A stretch of DNA of 64,000 nucleotides from a virus. A model generated the notes under the pieces. That model was not told the origin of the DNA, made no database searches, and saw only the letters and a list, made by a program, of their open reading frames with translations. Location: IMG/VR virus record IMGVR_UViG_3300047174_000111, positions 32,572-96,571 of that record. The stretch is one strand, 5' to 3'. Position numbers and translations under genes: made by a program. Below are positions 9,335 to 33,188 of this stretch, one piece after another; position 1 is the stretch's first letter, and each line of letters starts with the position of its first letter.

Positions 9335-9492
9335 GCCCGATCAACATCGTCCTGCTGGCTGGCGTGGTCTACCTGCTGTTCGTCGTCGGAATGGTGGACT
9401 GGTGCGAGTCCGCGCATCGGCGCCGCGAGCGCGTCACGTATCAGCGCAGCCGTGTCGTGGCCATGCTGCAGGACCTGCTGGCGGGCGACTGA
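9331..9492 (+). CDS. Small membrane protein, 53 aa
   Basis: Begins in the stop of the previous gene (ATGA). A single hydrophobic helix at residues 4-22 (INIVLLAGVVYLLFVVGMV) is followed by a basic tail (ESAHRRRERVTYQRSRVVAM). It lies directly before the terminase large subunit. A one-span protein here could be a small accessory membrane protein; nothing more specific can be said. Confidence 0.5.
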   Translation: MSPINIVLLAGVVYLLFVVGMVDWCESAHRRRERVTYQRSRVVAMLQDLLAGD

Positions 9493-9493
9493 C

Positions 9494-11146
9494 GTGTCCG
9501 ACGACGGCTTTGCCGATCAGGACCTCATGTCGTGGATGGCCAACGCGCCGCTGACGGCGATGGCCGAGATCGACCGCGAGTTGGTCGAGCGCGGTGGACT
9601 GCGCAGCTTCATCGAGCTGGGCTGGGGCACTGTCGAAGGCGAAAGCACCTACCGGCCGAACTGGCACATCGACGCGATATGCGAGCACTTCGAGGCCGTC
9701 AGTCGAGGCGAAATCCGGCGCCTGATGGTTCTCATCCCGCCGCGCCACATGAAGTCCCTGTCTGCCGCAGTTTTCTGGCCCGCCTACGACTGGATCGCCA
9801 ATCCTCAGCGACGCTGGGTCTTCGCTTCCTACGCATTCGATTTGTCGAGGCGCGACAGCGTGAAATGCCGTCGCGTCATTCAGAGCCAATGGTATCGCGA
9901 TCGGTGGGGCGATCGGTTCAAACTGGCACACGATCAGAACCGCCAGGACCGCTTCGACAACGATAAAGGTGGCTACCGCCTCTCCATCAGCGTCGACGGA
10001 AAGGTGACCGGCGAAGGTGGAAATATTATCGTAATAGACGACGCACTCAATGCCAAGGACGCAAACAGCGAAGCGGCTCGAATGAACGTTCAGCGCTGGT
10101 GGGACGAGTCCATGCCGACGCGCCTGAATGATCCTATCACAGGCGCATTTGTAATCGTACAGCAGCGCCTTCATGCGAATGATCTCGTCGGTCATATACG
10201 TAAGAAGAACGACCCTCGCTGGGTCAGCCTTTGCCTTCCGGCCGAATATGAGCCGGATCATCCACAGCGCTGGTTCCGAGACCCGCGCAAGGAAGCCGGC
10301 GAGCTGCTTTGGCCGTCGCGAGTGCCACGCCAAGAAATCGACGAACTCAAAGCGTCGCTAGGAGAATACGCCTCAGCGGGTCAGCTTCAGCAAAGGCCTG
10401 TGCCGCGTGAGGGCGGACTGTTCAAACGACACTGGTTCCACGTCGAAGCGTTCGCCCCGCCCGACTGCACATGGTCCAGCGCATGGGACTTTGCCGCTAC
10501 AGCGGCCAAGGTCACCAAGCCTGACCCAGACTGGACATCGAACGCGCTGGTCGGCAAGTCTCGGACCACGAACAAGTTCTACGTCAAGCGGATCAGACGC
10601 TTCCGCGAAGACCCGGGCGAGGTGCGCCGCCGCGTTCTGGCCACGGCGCAGGAAGACGGCCGGCAGGTCAAGGTGACGATCCCGCAGGACCCCGGCCAGG
10701 CCGGCAAGGATCAGGCGATCCAGTACGTCGGGCTGTTGGCCGGGTTCGAGGTGCTCGCCGAGGCGCAGACCGGCGACAAGATGTCGCGCGCCATGGGGTT
10801 CGCCGCCCAGGCCTCGGTCGGCAACGTGATCCTGATCGACGACGCGCATCTGCCGCCCGAGCAGAAATGGCATGCCGACTTCCTGGCCGAGATCACGTCC
10901 TTCCCGACCGGCGCGCATGACGACCAGGTCGATAGCGTGGCATCCGCCTACAACCGCCTCACCGACAGCACGTCGGGCATCATCGACTTCTACCGCGACC
11001 AGGTCGAGCAAGCAGCGGCCAAAAAGCCCGCGCCCGGCGCGCCGGCCCCGCCGCAGCCGCCGGTGCGTGTCGTGGAGGAGACAACGACCGATCTGGCACA
11101 GGCGCTGCGCGTCCTGCAGAAGAAAATGCAGAACCCCGGCACCTGA
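9494..11146 (+). CDS. terL: Terminase large subunit (packaging ATPase and nuclease)
   Basis: 550 aa from GTG 9494, one base after the upstream stop. It is the motor that pumps DNA into the prohead and cuts concatemers. The ATPase part has a Walker A-like VLIPPRHMKS near residues 79-89 and Walker B IIVIDDAL near 178-185. The C-terminal RNase H-like nuclease shows the aspartates of SAWDFAAT (about 329) and of AHDDQVDSVASA (about 475-486). The length is usual for the family. DNA coding for the Walker B region (about 9960-10260) is visibly less G+C-rich than the rest, which may reflect recombination or a lost insertion. Confidence 0.92.
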   Translation: MSDDGFADQDLMSWMANAPLTAMAEIDRELVERGGLRSFIELGWGTVEGESTYRPNWHIDAICEHFEAVSRGEIRRLMVLIPPRHMKSLSAAVFWPAYDWIANPQRRWVFASYAFDLSRRDSVKCRRVIQSQWYRDRWGDRFKLAHDQNRQDRFDNDKGGYRLSISVDGKVTGEGGNIIVIDDALNAKDANSEAARMNVQRWWDESMPTRLNDPITGAFVIVQQRLHANDLVGHIRKKNDPRWVSLCLPAEYEPDHPQRWFRDPRKEAGELLWPSRVPRQEIDELKASLGEYASAGQLQQRPVPREGGLFKRHWFHVEAFAPPDCTWSSAWDFAATAAKVTKPDPDWTSNALVGKSRTTNKFYVKRIRRFREDPGEVRRRVLATAQEDGRQVKVTIPQDPGQAGKDQAIQYVGLLAGFEVLAEAQTGDKMSRAMGFAAQASVGNVILIDDAHLPPEQKWHADFLAEITSFPTGAHDDQVDSVASAYNRLTDSTSGIIDFYRDQVEQAAAKKPAPGAPAPPQPPVRVVEETTTDLAQALRVLQKKMQNPGT

Positions 11147-12667: not shown

Positions 12668-15469
12668 ATGGCGCCTAAAATCACGCCGGGCGCAAGGGTG
12701 ACCGCGTTCACGCAGGAAATGATCTCGCGCGTCGCGGGCACGCTCAACTTTTTCAGCACCCAGGCCGCGCCCGGCGCCGCGACGGTGATCCGTCCGCCGA
12801 CGGCCGAGCCGTGGTTTGGTCCCGGTCGGCCGATGCTCCCGGCCGCGCCGGCCCAGGACGTCAAGGGGCGGGCGTTCGACTACCCGAACCAGTACAACAT
12901 CCAGATCCAGCCGCGCGCCTACGAGGGCATTTCCTTTGGGATGCTCAAGCGGCTCGCCGACGCCTCGGACATGGTCAGGCTCGCGATCGAAACCCGCAAG
13001 GACCAGTTCTCGGCGCTGGAGTGGTCGATCCAGCCCAAGATGGCGCAGGGCCAGGAGCTGCGATCAGCGCCGGACGCGCGCTGCGCCATGATCGAGGCCG
13101 CGCTCCAATATCCCGATCGGCGCCTGCCCTGGCACGCCTGGCAGCGCAAGATCATCGAGGAGCAGCTCGTCACCGACGCGGTGTCGATCTATGTGCGCCC
13201 CGACATGGGCGGCCGGCCATACAGCTTCGAGGTGCTGGACGGCGAGACGATCGCGCCGAAGCTCGATCTGTCGGGCCGCGAGCCTGAGGCGCCCGCGCCG
13301 GCCTACCAGCAGCGGCTCAAGGGCATGCCTGCGGTTGACTACAGCTCCGACGAGCTGATCTATGCGCCGCGCAATCCAAGAAACGGTCGCGTCTACGGAT
13401 GCTCTCCTGTAGAACAGATCATCATGACGGTAAATATTGCGATCCGTCGTGAAGTATCAAAGCTCCAATTCTACTGCTATTCTGATGATACAGAGGTGCT
13501 TACGAAGCGCGGATGGCTTCGCTTCGCCGAGACGACTTCCGACGACCAGTTCGCAACCCGTCAGATCAACACGGCCGTATTCGAGTGGCAAAAGCCTTAC
13601 GACACTTTCTACAAGCATTATACTGGAGAACTGATCCACTTCACCGGTCGATCGCTCGACCTGCTCGTGACGCCTCACCACAGGATGCTCGTGAACGTCT
13701 TTCCCGGAGCCATGGGCCGCAAGCCCAAGGGAGAGCACGTCATCACCGCAGAGGAGCTTGAGCGCTATGGCACGCCCAACGTCGGCCTACCGCAAACATC
13801 GGTGTGGGCAGGCGAAGAGCTGGGCGACCAAACGTTCACCGACGCCAACCCGCACTCCTGGGACATCACGCTCACCGGCGATCAGTATTGCGCCTTCATG
13901 GGCATGTATCTGGCCGAGGGCAATCTCAGGAAGCGATCGATTGCCATTTCCCAGCCGCCCGACACGCGCGGCGCGCACGAGAAGTACGGCGCGCTCCTGA
14001 AAGAAATCTTCGGCAGCGTCAGCTACTGCGGCCACCAGTTCGAGGTGGGACGCAAGGCGCTGGTCGAGCACCTTCGCCAGTTCGGCAAGGCTGGCGAAAA
14101 GTTCATCCCTGAGACGATCAAGGGCGCGACGCCACGTCAGCTGAAGATTTTCTTCGAGCACTATATGCTGGGTGACGGAACGGCGTTCGGCGATCGAGGC
14201 GGCATCCAGCAGGCGTTCACGGTGAGCCGGCGGCTCTCGGACGATCTGACTGAGATCGGTCAGAAACTGGGCTATGCGCCGGCGGTGTTCACCCGCAAAG
14301 CTGGGAAGGGAATGGTGGGAGACCGCGAGGTCAACCAGCGCGTCGGCTACATGATCACGTTTGGGCGCCGCAAAGCGACCAAGGGCTGGACGGCGAAACG
14401 CGTGAACTACGACGCTCCGGTCGCATGCGTCTGCGTCCCGAACAAGTTCCTGTACGTGCGCCGCAACGGCAAAGCGGTTTGGTCCGGGAACACGGAGGGC
14501 ACTGTTCCGGAAGCACTCGCGAGTGTCCCGAAGGAGTGGGGACCGGACAAGATCAAGGAATTCCAGGACATCTGGGACACGATGCTTGCCGATCAGGCCA
14601 CGAAGCGGCGACTGAAGTTCGTGCCGGGCGACATGACGTTCCAGCCGACCCGCGCGGATTCGTCGCTGCAGGACCCATACGACGAGTGGCTCGCCCGCGT
14701 CATCATGTTCGCGTTCAGCTTGCCGGCTTTGCCCTTTGTAAAGATGCAAAATCGCGCGACCGCTGATACCGCTTACGAAACGGCTTTGGAGGAAGGTCTC
14801 CAGCCCATGATGACCTGGTTCAAGACCAGCATCATGGACCGGATCATCCAGCGGAATTACGGGTTCACTGACGTGGAATTCGTCTGGAAGGACGTCGACG
14901 ACGTCGATCCGGGCGAGCAGCAGACCCGAGACCTGTCAATGATCCAGGTCGGGGTGAAAAGCATCGACGAGGTGCGCGCCGGCATGGGACTGCAGCCGAT
15001 CGGCATGACGCACGCCATCTGGGGCATCGGCCCGGCCGGCATCATGTTCGTCTCCGACCTCGTCCAGGCGCGGGACCAGGGGCTGCTGCAGATCCAGCCG
15101 CCGGCGCCGCCGCCCATGATGGCGGCCGGTGATCCGAACGACCCGATGGACGGAGGACCGGGCTTCGTGGACGGCGGTAGCCCGGCGCCGGGATCGAACG
15201 CGGCGCCGATGCTTGCGCTGCCCGCACCGCGCCGCGCGCTGCCCGCGCCTGGGCAGCCCGGCGTGGCGGACGCGCTGGCCGGAGTGCCGCCGAAGCTGCT
15301 CGCTGCCGTTGGTCTGGGGCCGGCCGGACCGGCGGGTCGCAGCGTCGATGTGACATCTGGCGAGGAGACGGCCAGCGACCCGCTGGCGCGGCATGCAGCC
15401 AACCCCACGGTGCTGCGCACACTGCGCGCCGCGGAACGCACCCAACAGAACAGGAGACCAAGCCGATGA
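12668..15469 (+). CDS. Portal protein precursor containing an intein
   Basis: 933 aa. Residues 1-269 and 609-933 together give a portal of about 594 aa, a normal size. The portal is the dodecameric ring through which DNA enters and leaves the capsid. Recognisable parts are the wing and stem region in the first 270 residues, SSDELIYAPRNP, then after the insertion TEGTVPEALASVPKEWGPDK and KLKFVPG-like RRLKFVPGDMTF. The C-terminus is a Pro/Ala-rich tail. Residues 270-608 are an in-frame intein with a homing-endonuclease domain. Joining residues 269 and 609 restores FYTEGTVPEAL, a conserved portal motif, so protein splicing is needed for a working portal. The next gene overlaps by ATGA. Confidence 0.9.
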   Translation: MAPKITPGARVTAFTQEMISRVAGTLNFFSTQAAPGAATVIRPPTAEPWFGPGRPMLPAAPAQDVKGRAFDYPNQYNIQIQPRAYEGISFGMLKRLADASDMVRLAIETRKDQFSALEWSIQPKMAQGQELRSAPDARCAMIEAALQYPDRRLPWHAWQRKIIEEQLVTDAVSIYVRPDMGGRPYSFEVLDGETIAPKLDLSGREPEAPAPAYQQRLKGMPAVDYSSDELIYAPRNPRNGRVYGCSPVEQIIMTVNIAIRREVSKLQFYCYSDDTEVLTKRGWLRFAETTSDDQFATRQINTAVFEWQKPYDTFYKHYTGELIHFTGRSLDLLVTPHHRMLVNVFPGAMGRKPKGEHVITAEELERYGTPNVGLPQTSVWAGEELGDQTFTDANPHSWDITLTGDQYCAFMGMYLAEGNLRKRSIAISQPPDTRGAHEKYGALLKEIFGSVSYCGHQFEVGRKALVEHLRQFGKAGEKFIPETIKGATPRQLKIFFEHYMLGDGTAFGDRGGIQQAFTVSRRLSDDLTEIGQKLGYAPAVFTRKAGKGMVGDREVNQRVGYMITFGRRKATKGWTAKRVNYDAPVACVCVPNKFLYVRRNGKAVWSGNTEGTVPEALASVPKEWGPDKIKEFQDIWDTMLADQATKRRLKFVPGDMTFQPTRADSSLQDPYDEWLARVIMFAFSLPALPFVKMQNRATADTAYETALEEGLQPMMTWFKTSIMDRIIQRNYGFTDVEFVWKDVDDVDPGEQQTRDLSMIQVGVKSIDEVRAGMGLQPIGMTHAIWGIGPAGIMFVSDLVQARDQGLLQIQPPAPPPMMAAGDPNDPMDGGPGFVDGGSPAPGSNAAPMLALPAPRRALPAPGQPGVADALAGVPPKLLAAVGLGPAGPAGRSVDVTSGEETASDPLARHAANPTVLRTLRAAERTQQNRRPSR
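13475..14491 (+). other. Intein with LAGLIDADG homing endonuclease, in the portal gene
   Basis: 339 residues. It starts at Cys1 in block A (CYSDDTEVLTKRGWLRF). A block-B-like LLVTPHHRML follows at about residue 66 of the intein, then two LAGLIDADG-type helices (CAFMGMYLAEGNL and IFFEHYMLGDGTAFG), then block F (PVACVCVPNKFLYVRRNG), and it ends ...WSGN before Thr. The splice chemistry residues Cys1, terminal Asn and Thr+1 are present. The penultimate residue is Gly, where His is usual, which some natural inteins tolerate. Both endonuclease acidic motifs look intact, so homing may still be active. Confidence 0.88.
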
Positions 15470-31100: not shown

Positions 31101-33188
31101 GCGGGCTATATCGCGGTCCACGCGCCCGACCCCGACAACAAGGGCGAGCGTCTGGTGGTTTACGGCGAGCACTACAAGAACGATGGGTCGACGACACCTC
31201 TCCGCGCCGGTTCGACGCTATCGGATGTGCGTCGCGCGGTTGCCGATTATGAACAGAAATACCAGCAGCAGCGCCCGCAGAACCAGAACGCGCCCAGCAG
31301 CAGCACGATCGGGGGCGCGACGAGCGGCCCGCGCGAGCTGCGTGATGCGCAGAACCTGGAGCCGAACCGCAAGGCCCTGATCGACAAGACCGTGGCCGCG
31401 CTCAAGGGCACGCAGGGCGGCCTGCAGACGCTGCGCGCTGGGCAGGACGGGCCAGAGATGCAGTTCCGTGGCGACGGATCGAACGACAAGGAGCACAACG
31501 ACGCGGCGGGCCAGTTCGTCGCGCATCTCCGCGACAAGCATCTCGCGTCCGGCGCGCCCCAGGGACAGGCGGTTCACAAGGCGCTCGACACGCTGTTCTC
31601 CAATGAAGGCCGCGTCCTGACCCGCAAGCAGGCGTTCGCCCAGCTGACCGGCTACACCAAAGAGGGTCAGGACCGGAACAAGCCGTCGATCCTGACGAAG
31701 CGGCCCGGGTTCGGATCGGCCGACAAAGCCGAGGTCGGCGCCGCGCTGAACGCCGAGATCGACCGCATCGTCAAGGACGCGGCGCCCAGGGATGACCGAG
31801 AGAAGGGCGCACTGCATCTCGCTGCATCGGTGATCGGCGTAGAGAAGCAGCTTCCCGACGACGTGATGCAGGCGGTCCACGCCAAGATCCGCGGCTCAAC
31901 GCCGACGACGGGTCCGGCCGAGACGGCGGGGGCAAGCAGCTCCGGCATCGCGGCGCCCAAGGCGCAGCCAGCCGGGCCGATCGCGAAGGAGCCGGACAGC
32001 ACCGACCCGGACAAGCTGGTCGAGAACGAGAACCCGCCGCATTTCGTGGCGAGCCAGCTTCGTGATTACGCGGAGGGTGAGGCGCGCGCGCTGCGCACCG
32101 ATCTGCGCCTGCGTCAGGCTGACCAGGCGGAAATCCTCATCCCGGCGATCGAGCATCTCGCGCGCGTCGTGGGCCACAGCCATGGGCTGGACGAGCAGAC
32201 CGCAGCGCGGGTCGCGGCGGACACGTTCCGCGCCACGGCCGCGGGCGGGGACTGGAACCGCGTTATGACGGCCGATGAGATCGCGAAGGGCAACCTGAAC
32301 ACGTTCCGCTACACGCTGCGGCGCAAGGCTGACGCCGAGAAGCTGAAGATGGAGGCCAACAAGTCCGCCGGGGCTGTGCCGCTCGGTAAGCTGCTCGACG
32401 ATCTCGACGCGCTGGCCAAGGCGTTCGACGGTGGAGATTTCAATCCAGATTTGCACCCACGGTTGGCCGCTGGTGAGCAGGGAGGTGGCGAGTTTGCTCC
32501 AAAGGGCGGTCATGGCGCTGGGGGTTTGGCGGGGCGGATCAGACAAGGGGCTGTCGAGGGATCGACCGATATCGTTGACAAGCAGGCCGCAGCTGCTGCG
32601 CGTGGCACCAGCCGCAAGGCGGTGCCGTGGTACAGTCCCGGCCGCGCAATCCCCGATGCCGGCAATGCGCTTGGAGGTGCATTCGCCTATGCCGGCGCCG
32701 AGAAGGCGATGCAGATCGCCGAGCGCTTCCTGCCGGCACCCTTGCGCACGGCCGCCGAGGTTGCGAGCGCGCCGGGATTGGTGGGCGGCGTCAAGGCGGC
32801 GCTCGGATTGGGCTTCAAGGGCGCCATCAAAGAGGGCGCGAAGGCAGCCGCGAAAACAGGGTTGGTCGGCGGTGCATCCGTCGCCGGCGGAACGCTGGGC
32901 GCCTTAGTAGGCACGAAACTGGTCGGCCACGAAGCGCCCGCCCCCGCCTACCACGACTCAGGCGAGGCGTTGGCCGAGAGCGCCGGGTCGCTCGCCGGCA
33001 GTTTCGCCGGCAGCGCCGCCGCGCTCGTGCCGGGCCCCGGCTGGCTAGTGGCGCCGACGCTCAGTGCCGCCGGCAGCTACGCGGGCGGTTTGGTGGCGCG
33101 CGGCGCGTACGACTGGTTCAAGGGCTACGACCAGAAGACCGTCGCGCGCGTCGCGCGCCGTTACGCCAAGCCTGCGACCAACCCATGA
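28155..33188 (+). CDS. Very large head-region protein, 1677 aa, unknown family
   Basis: Features in order: HPRGAHGRFS motif (about residues 69-83); a hydrophobic segment near 140-160 and further Ala/Gly-rich segments at about 180, 240-285 and 335-360; a second motif copy NPNHDARGRFTS (about 370); a hydrophobic stretch GGALLGGAAAGLGVYAAL; a long Ala/Lys/Glu coiled coil (about 575-665) and more helices to 900; a soluble region (about 950-1400); a third motif-like copy LHPRLAAGEQGGGEF (about 1430); and several Gly/Ala segments to the C-terminus. It has no catalytic motif. By position and plan it may be an internal or ejected virion protein. The next gene overlaps its last codons. Confidence 0.55.
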   Translation: MPRPHFDATLIGELRNRVVAHNQRTPSALAKLGHVKRIYEKAYSGPTPHERALAKVDAHLNDLAKAGEFDDAEHPRGAHGRFSRTAAAKPGVSIPLPATQDEHQKLQQTNAGYRALTTDLLPTRHNEIIGGVVRDVGSAAAGGLLVAGLLRGRPGGAVRRGARWIGGMAGKYGLGIPVSLTAHGLTAGAGVTRAAIARGRGRPAPPDPSHDLAARISEWFGAHGQRIGAATADLSMGAASAAARAAVHVAGSTARTPGQARLRRVGAAAALAAVPALAIRSKIEDTQLDPAVIGRNIDAYSYRSVQKLAGDPNAEDLLKASFLRYPYVGGVARAVRTGAAAVGGAAAGALAGFGIHAATGAGDHARGNPNHDARGRFTSRDAAVSGGALLGGAAAGLGVYAALRSHNTAQLSRALARSSTKLARKLAAVRSETGIGSVPKMIAERDARVREMMDEEPFASRLKDAGASLQEPSGEFRVVNAKAYTRAKVNDHLASKLSQIDEFAIPNEVSGASKSMRDLRAKARTHVDPDIVAKQKVLEFVASATPKEFHDALATVPDEKVRQEIGSIFDKRQEWINAVDDQIAAHHEAIAQAEAEVKKTSQRAADAQVAADKASAAHEAAEGKAKAAAKKRFDAADKAFDDADEAHQTAISRLDDLKKQPTGVRLPKELGGAAVPKPSREATERSRSSIIEAVRSDARKKADKEIADARDAQERDIVHRHSRAVAAHTHMTHSSGAAVPDQAAAEARAVAAASVAHEQARDALNTAHRNLIETQQRHDAHVSITPLPSQRKDHTAATKALKAQIKQHQADLKAAHAAVSTTSADVTGAVQAMERQMRVAAASTGGPRLPRQMIGDLRLEVMRAARAAASPVDAFIRSPSAAALKQFASSAIGLAGATAAATGEGIKETAKKAFLTEDGSALHPGKAIASIGVATAATDAILDHGAHIRRALFGSDEEKESAKPLKAPKGFRTEHKVHPITGAGYIAVHAPDPDNKGERLVVYGEHYKNDGSTTPLRAGSTLSDVRRAVADYEQKYQQQRPQNQNAPSSSTIGGATSGPRELRDAQNLEPNRKALIDKTVAALKGTQGGLQTLRAGQDGPEMQFRGDGSNDKEHNDAAGQFVAHLRDKHLASGAPQGQAVHKALDTLFSNEGRVLTRKQAFAQLTGYTKEGQDRNKPSILTKRPGFGSADKAEVGAALNAEIDRIVKDAAPRDDREKGALHLAASVIGVEKQLPDDVMQAVHAKIRGSTPTTGPAETAGASSSGIAAPKAQPAGPIAKEPDSTDPDKLVENENPPHFVASQLRDYAEGEARALRTDLRLRQADQAEILIPAIEHLARVVGHSHGLDEQTAARVAADTFRATAAGGDWNRVMTADEIAKGNLNTFRYTLRRKADAEKLKMEANKSAGAVPLGKLLDDLDALAKAFDGGDFNPDLHPRLAAGEQGGGEFAPKGGHGAGGLAGRIRQGAVEGSTDIVDKQAAAAARGTSRKAVPWYSPGRAIPDAGNALGGAFAYAGAEKAMQIAERFLPAPLRTAAEVASAPGLVGGVKAALGLGFKGAIKEGAKAAAKTGLVGGASVAGGTLGALVGTKLVGHEAPAPAYHDSGEALAESAGSLAGSFAGSAAALVPGPGWLVAPTLSAAGSYAGGLVARGAYDWFKGYDQKTVARVARRYAKPATNP

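Follow-up and report, generated by a model that had tools for sequence, protein, structure and literature searches.

An in-frame insertion in a phage portal gene

The window analysed here, a stretch of 64,000 nucleotides taken from positions 32,572 to 96,571 of the IMG/VR virus record IMGVR_UViG_3300047174_000111, carries on its plus strand an open reading frame of 933 codons (12668-15469) that contains an insertion of 1017 nt, corresponding to 339 codons (13475-14491; residues 270-608). The insertion is in frame and free of stop codons, and its subtraction leaves a protein of 594 residues. It opens with CYSDDTEVLTKRGW and closes with VRRNGKAVWSGN, thus running from Cys1 to Asn339, and is followed by TEG, whose Thr is the +1 residue (C...GN/T; a slash marks a junction here and below). 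The portal is the ring by which DNA passes into the capsid. The host gene was identified as a phage portal gene by its flanks, which match PF04860 (E 3.1e-10), PHROG 2662 (E 3.1e-52) and PHROG 12, by the TerL gene upstream (9452-11146; PHROG 38, E 1.7e-78), and by the predicted structure of an intein-free homologue, L012, which has the portal fold and matches solved portals. The features of the locus are as follows (all on the + strand):

12668-13474, +: N-extein, portal residues 1-269, with the PHROG 2662 and PHROG 12 matches; homologous to intein-free L012 (71%), L001 and L013-L015
13475-14491, +: intein, 339 residues, Cys1 to Asn339
13475-13516, +: block A, CYSDDTEVLTKRGW, with the presumed nucleophile Cys1
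13658-13693, +: block B, DLLVTPHHRMLV, with Thr66 (B:7), His69 (B:10) and Met71 (B:12)
13877-14374, +: predicted LAGLIDADG homing endonuclease domain, about residues 135-300
13877-13921, +: block C, first LAGLIDADG motif FMGMYLAEG, with the putative catalytic Glu148 (13916-13918)
14099-14119, +: block D, KFIPETI, with Lys209
14135-14179, +: block E, second LAGLIDADG motif FFEHYMLGDG, with the putative catalytic Asp234 (14174-14176)
14228-14272, +: block H of the endonuclease, SDDLTEIGQKLGYAP
14408-14464, +: block F, YDAPVACVCVPNKFLYVRR, with Cys318 at F:4 (14426-14428)
14471-14494, +: block G and the +1 residue, KAVWSGN/T, with penultimate Gly338, Asn339 and Thr+1
14492-15469, +: C-extein, portal residues 270-594 and the stop codon, with the PF04860 match

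The initial annotation had described an in-frame insertion of 339 residues beginning with Cys and ending with Asn before Thr, and its coordinates proved exact; blocks A, B (TPHH), F and G and the two LAGLIDADG motifs (GMYLAEG in block C and YMLGDG in block E) likewise lie where it had placed them, blocks D (KFIP) and H being added here. Its central proposal, a LAGLIDADG homing-endonuclease intein in a portal gene, draws support from the sequence and its predicted fold, from the alignment of the family and from alleles that lack the intein. The element occurs once: a search of the 96,571-base virus record for a second copy returned none.

Empty sites in homologous portals

Intein-free homologues of the host protein were found in the Brevundimonas phages Polewnik and Strzyga, in Thermoanaerobacterium phage THSA-485A, and in the viral contigs L011 and L012, whose portal lacks the insertion and matches most of the spliced protein at 71% identity, L012 being the closest intein-free relative. 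A portal survey, for which the C-terminal half of the portal alone served as query and which was therefore blind to inteins upstream of it, retrieved 80 portals. The FY/TEG junction was contiguous in all 80, with Thr at the residue homologous to +1 in 72, so that the host sequence of the homologues continues exactly across the point of insertion and excision of the element restores the FYTEG motif, as had been proposed. Intein sequence (an intein end) was present in a single surveyed portal, L179, at another site; the element is thus rare per portal gene. Full-length relatives of the 339-residue insertion occupy the same portal position in other contigs (L005, E 8e-123; L006; L008; L009) and, taken with the 80 contiguous portals, argue that the insertion is not a product of chance.

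Low GC content by the junction was considered as a mark of co-conversion and rejected: third-position GC is about 0.5 there and intein-free L012 shows an equal dip, which is therefore a property of the conserved site and no evidence of co-conversion.

Predicted fold and conserved catalytic positions

An AF2 model of the intein, built from 74 family members with the Lak-A1 row left out (mean pLDDT 96.3; pTM 0.93), predicts a Hint splicing domain joined to a two-motif LAGLIDADG endonuclease. The best Foldseek matches in the PDB were LAGLIDADG-bearing inteins (TliVMA, E 8.0e-18; PhoVMA; PI-SceI; 2cw7; PI-PfuI), followed by AceL NrdHF, a split intein, and I-DmoI, a free endonuclease, and a profile search concurred (7qsu and 2cw7 for the endonuclease domain). 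TliVMA (7qsu, 7qss), PI-SceI and PI-PfuI share with the window intein the Hint domain and the nested two-motif endonuclease, but are only about 9-16% identical to it and occupy other host genes and insertion sites. Each of the two LAGLIDADG helices of the model carries one acid (Glu148 on helix 135-148 and Asp234 on helix 220-234). Among the profiles of splicing domains, the NCBIfam intein N-terminal profile fell below cut-off (E 0.17), and the insertion alone had no Pfam match.

Catalytic positions were compared across 181 relatives. Cys1 and the first acid (Glu or Asp) are each present in 176, a conservation that is partly built in because the relatives were scanned with block A and the first LAGLIDADG motif as patterns. 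None of blocks B, E, F and G served as a pattern in that scan; there, His69 is present in all 181 relatives, Thr66 in 159, the second acid (Asp or Glu) in 178, Cys318 in 169, Gly338 in 165 and Asn339 in 169, while the +1 residue is Ser, Thr or Cys in 178. Within the 74 sequences, Lys209 and Pro212 of block D are invariant or nearly so, and Glu260, Lys264 and Gly266 of block H are conserved. At 57-59% identity, the nearest relatives of the intein are too distant for dN/dS to be informative about its endonuclease.

Splicing chemistry and class

The residues expected of a class 1 intein are in place (Cys1, T66PHH69, Asn339 and Thr+1), accompanied by Cys318 at F:4 and a penultimate Gly338. The penultimate His that is common in class 1, although not defining for it, is replaced by this Gly, and block F holds no His able to assist Asn cyclisation. 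The initial annotation had singled out the penultimate Gly as making the splicing chemistry worth testing; a reading of this Gly as an anomaly was rejected, since Gly is the rule of the family (165 of 181 relatives). Mycobacteriophage class 1 inteins are often without the penultimate His, and the Bethlehem RDF intein, which shares the penultimate Gly and an endonuclease domain with the window intein but differs in host gene, splices completely, its G316H substitution slowing the reaction (PMC5050341).

An assignment to class 3 was rejected: inteins of that class have no nucleophile at position 1, where Cys1 is present here, and of their W-C-T triplet at B:12/F:4/G:5 only the Cys is matched (M71-C318-S337), W and T being missing. 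The solved splicing domain nearest in sequence is nevertheless that of AceL NrdHF (6zgq), a split class 3 intein, and the F:4 Cys may for this reason take a share in the reaction. A reaction in which the first branched intermediate is formed by Cys318 and not by Cys1, the class 3 route, or in which both cysteines act, would agree with the F:4 Cys of 169 relatives and with AceL NrdHF likewise having Cys at F:4, Met at B:12 and neither assisting His (PMC7891396), but we regard this as unlikely. AceL NrdHF has Ala1 and Thr at G:5 and is split, whereas the window intein has Cys1 and Ser at G:5 and is continuous; Cys1 is no less conserved than the F:4 Cys; and Cys is the second commonest F:4 residue of inteins generally, after Asp (PMC4031507).

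Considerably less probable is a degenerate element, retained after the loss of splicing or homing. The absence of both the penultimate and the block F His could be read in this way, as the activity of this copy is judged from its sequence, but the frame is without stops or frameshifts, every catalytic residue for splicing and endonuclease action is kept, phage assembly should fail without a spliced portal, and Gly338 is a family feature and not a lesion. A permanent extra portal domain that is no intein, which the portal profile alone would accommodate and with which the sub-threshold NCBIfam match could be squared, can be given practically no weight in view of the intein catalytic residues at both ends, the intein fold, the presence of this element in further genes, TerL among them, and the 80 cleanly contiguous intein-free homologues.

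The element is thus very probably a functional homing intein of the class 1 type, for which we infer splicing, cutting and a sequence of reactions as follows. A single 933-residue precursor would be translated from the portal gene, and the 339-residue insertion would fold as a Hint domain and excise itself by the class 1 route, in which Cys1 would attack the Tyr-1/Cys1 bond, the N-extein would be passed to Thr+1 and Asn339 would cyclise, joining FY to TEG in a portal of 594 residues. In co-infection the nested endonuclease, with its two LAGLIDADG motifs, would cut intein-free portal alleles near the FY/TEG codons, and repair templated by the intein-bearing genome would copy the element in.

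Grouping by insertion site and movement among divergent portals

The inteins sharing the FY/TEG position are more alike than the portals that carry them: identity to the window portal gene product is 59% for the intein against 34% for the exteins in L005, 57% against 40% in L006, and 50% against 32% in L008, as expected for horizontal homing. These elements have been transferred between divergent portals. In a tree of 57 inteins the insertion-site labels require 21 changes, compared with a mean of 41 when labels are shuffled, and the lineages are thus site specific. Trees grouped by site, together with inteins closer than their hosts, make up the pattern that site-specific homing leaves among divergent phages, as read from the sequences, and from the site-specific lineages we infer site-specific cutting of the intein-free allele.

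The portal gene as an intein hot spot

Relatives were searched with the intein alone (alignment A1), a procedure that is neutral on host gene, and near-identical contigs were kept. Of the 80 viral loci nearest to the window intein, 43 have theirs inside the same portal family, the commonest host gene; other portal families account for three loci (L025, L043 and L057) and terminases for two (L036 and L042). The portal location, described in the initial annotation as much less common for inteins than terminase or replication genes, is therefore not unusual for this lineage, yet any given portal is rarely occupied (one of the 80 surveyed portals). Projected onto a single portal profile, the junctions define ten positions, a to j, given below as residues of the spliced window portal:

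Site a, 269/270, FY/TEG: divergent inteins in separate contigs
Site b, 245/246, YG/SPVEQ: divergent inteins in separate contigs
Site c, 193/194, DGS/TIK: divergent inteins in separate contigs
Site d, 209/210: one secure lineage
Site e, 215/216: divergent inteins in separate contigs
Site f, 219/220: one secure lineage
Site g, 256/257: one secure lineage
Site h, 272/273: one secure lineage
Site i, 285/286: divergent inteins in separate contigs
Site j, 50/51: one secure lineage

The sites of L141, of the first intein of L056 and of L059 were omitted or marked as unsure on account of irregular ends or alignment. Every site is contiguous in each intein-free portal that has both flanking columns (69 to 80 of 80 per site), nine of the ten sites lie within about 95 of the 451 profile columns, and the surroundings of the sites are conserved (randomisation P=0.0003). 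Four portals carry two inteins, namely L019 (b and a; L019:1-1664), L030 (j and a), L040 (f and b) and L041 (b and i); the inteins of L019 are 24 host residues apart, the first of them cut by the contig end. A different kind of second insertion is present in L008 (7370-8353), a portal/head-morphogenesis fusion, which holds, besides its site-a intein, 328 residues of another type in the C-terminal head-morphogenesis part (FAGDAVV...TPNHPILTQRGW...ILAHN before CRC, with a His-Asn end).

Portal inteins are already known, and the window element is a further case of a phage intein that encloses a homing endonuclease. Six portal (PORT) inteins have been listed for mycobacteriophages of cluster C1 (Kelley et al. 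2016, PMC5050341, Table 1); they likewise lie in a phage portal gene, but in other phages, and the same study includes class 1 phage inteins with a penultimate Gly, like that of the window. The tblastn matches of the window intein listed for Mycobacterium fall on the nucleotidyltransferase intein, at 25-32% identity. It is the portal hot spot, as family context, that somewhat lifts an otherwise ordinary member of a large family and known kind of intein. Intein hot-spot genes include Prp8, with seven sites, and mycobacteriophage TerL, with at least five (PMC6805012); as here, one gene is invaded at several sites and the intein trees group by site, whereas the present gene is a phage portal, with five well-supported sites and five with one lineage each. 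The family makes the phage portal a hot spot comparable to Prp8 and TerL, and one that surpasses Prp8 and its seven sites, provided that all ten are confirmed. A search confined largely to openly accessible papers yielded no account of portals with many intein sites.

Probable change of site and exchange of endonuclease

Sister inteins occupy site a in L005 and site b in L007 (support 99 in the intein tree and 98/98 in the endonuclease tree). The intein of L009 (L009:725-1858) was compared with L006:445-1482 and L061:2501-3664. L009 and L006 share the site, have exteins of 86% identity and group as sisters by their splicing domains (99/99; N-terminal part 80% identical), but the L009 endonuclease falls in the site-b clade (100/99), with 63% identity to L061 versus 41% to L006. 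The AU test rejected a grouping of the L006 and L009 endonucleases (P=6e-5); the converse test, with the short splicing domain, was weaker (P=0.07). With a site-a splicing domain and a site-b endonuclease, the mosaic is best read from these comparisons as an endonuclease swap within an intein.

Sites a and b are only 72 bp apart, so that a cut at b could carry along an element at a by co-conversion. We give about even chances to a scenario in which an intein lineage specialised on portals colonises new positions in the gene by moves to neighbouring sites and by endonuclease exchange; if so, the ten sites, pairs of the L019 type, the L005/L007 sisters and the L009 mosaic would be stages of portal colonisation. 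The natural series of a swapped endonuclease at the same site, the same endonuclease clade at a new site and paired inteins allows the way in which homing elements reach new sites to be tested.

Relatives in other genes

The intein family with Cys1, F:4 Cys and a Gly-Asn end is widespread in archaeal and bacterial genomes, where it occurs in many other genes (L097-L176). Methanoculleus and its relatives share one common insertion site, with the flanks DRSALHEAMEQQ/SISVAKAGITATL, in a host gene that resembles an MCM helicase gene. A relative of 27% identity with the corresponding end CGN/S lies in an unannotated gene of the 540-kb Prevotella phage Lak-A1 (L004:3016-4128). Several inteins have Gln in place of the terminal Asn (TSQ or CGQ, for instance), namely those of L046, L060, L061, L062, L063 (site b) and L036 (TerL). 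The profiles PHROG 85 (thymidylate synthase) and PHROG 12229 (ribonucleotide reductase) contain intein sequence, so that their matches in unrelated phage proteins such as portal and TerL can be intein matches that mislead annotation.
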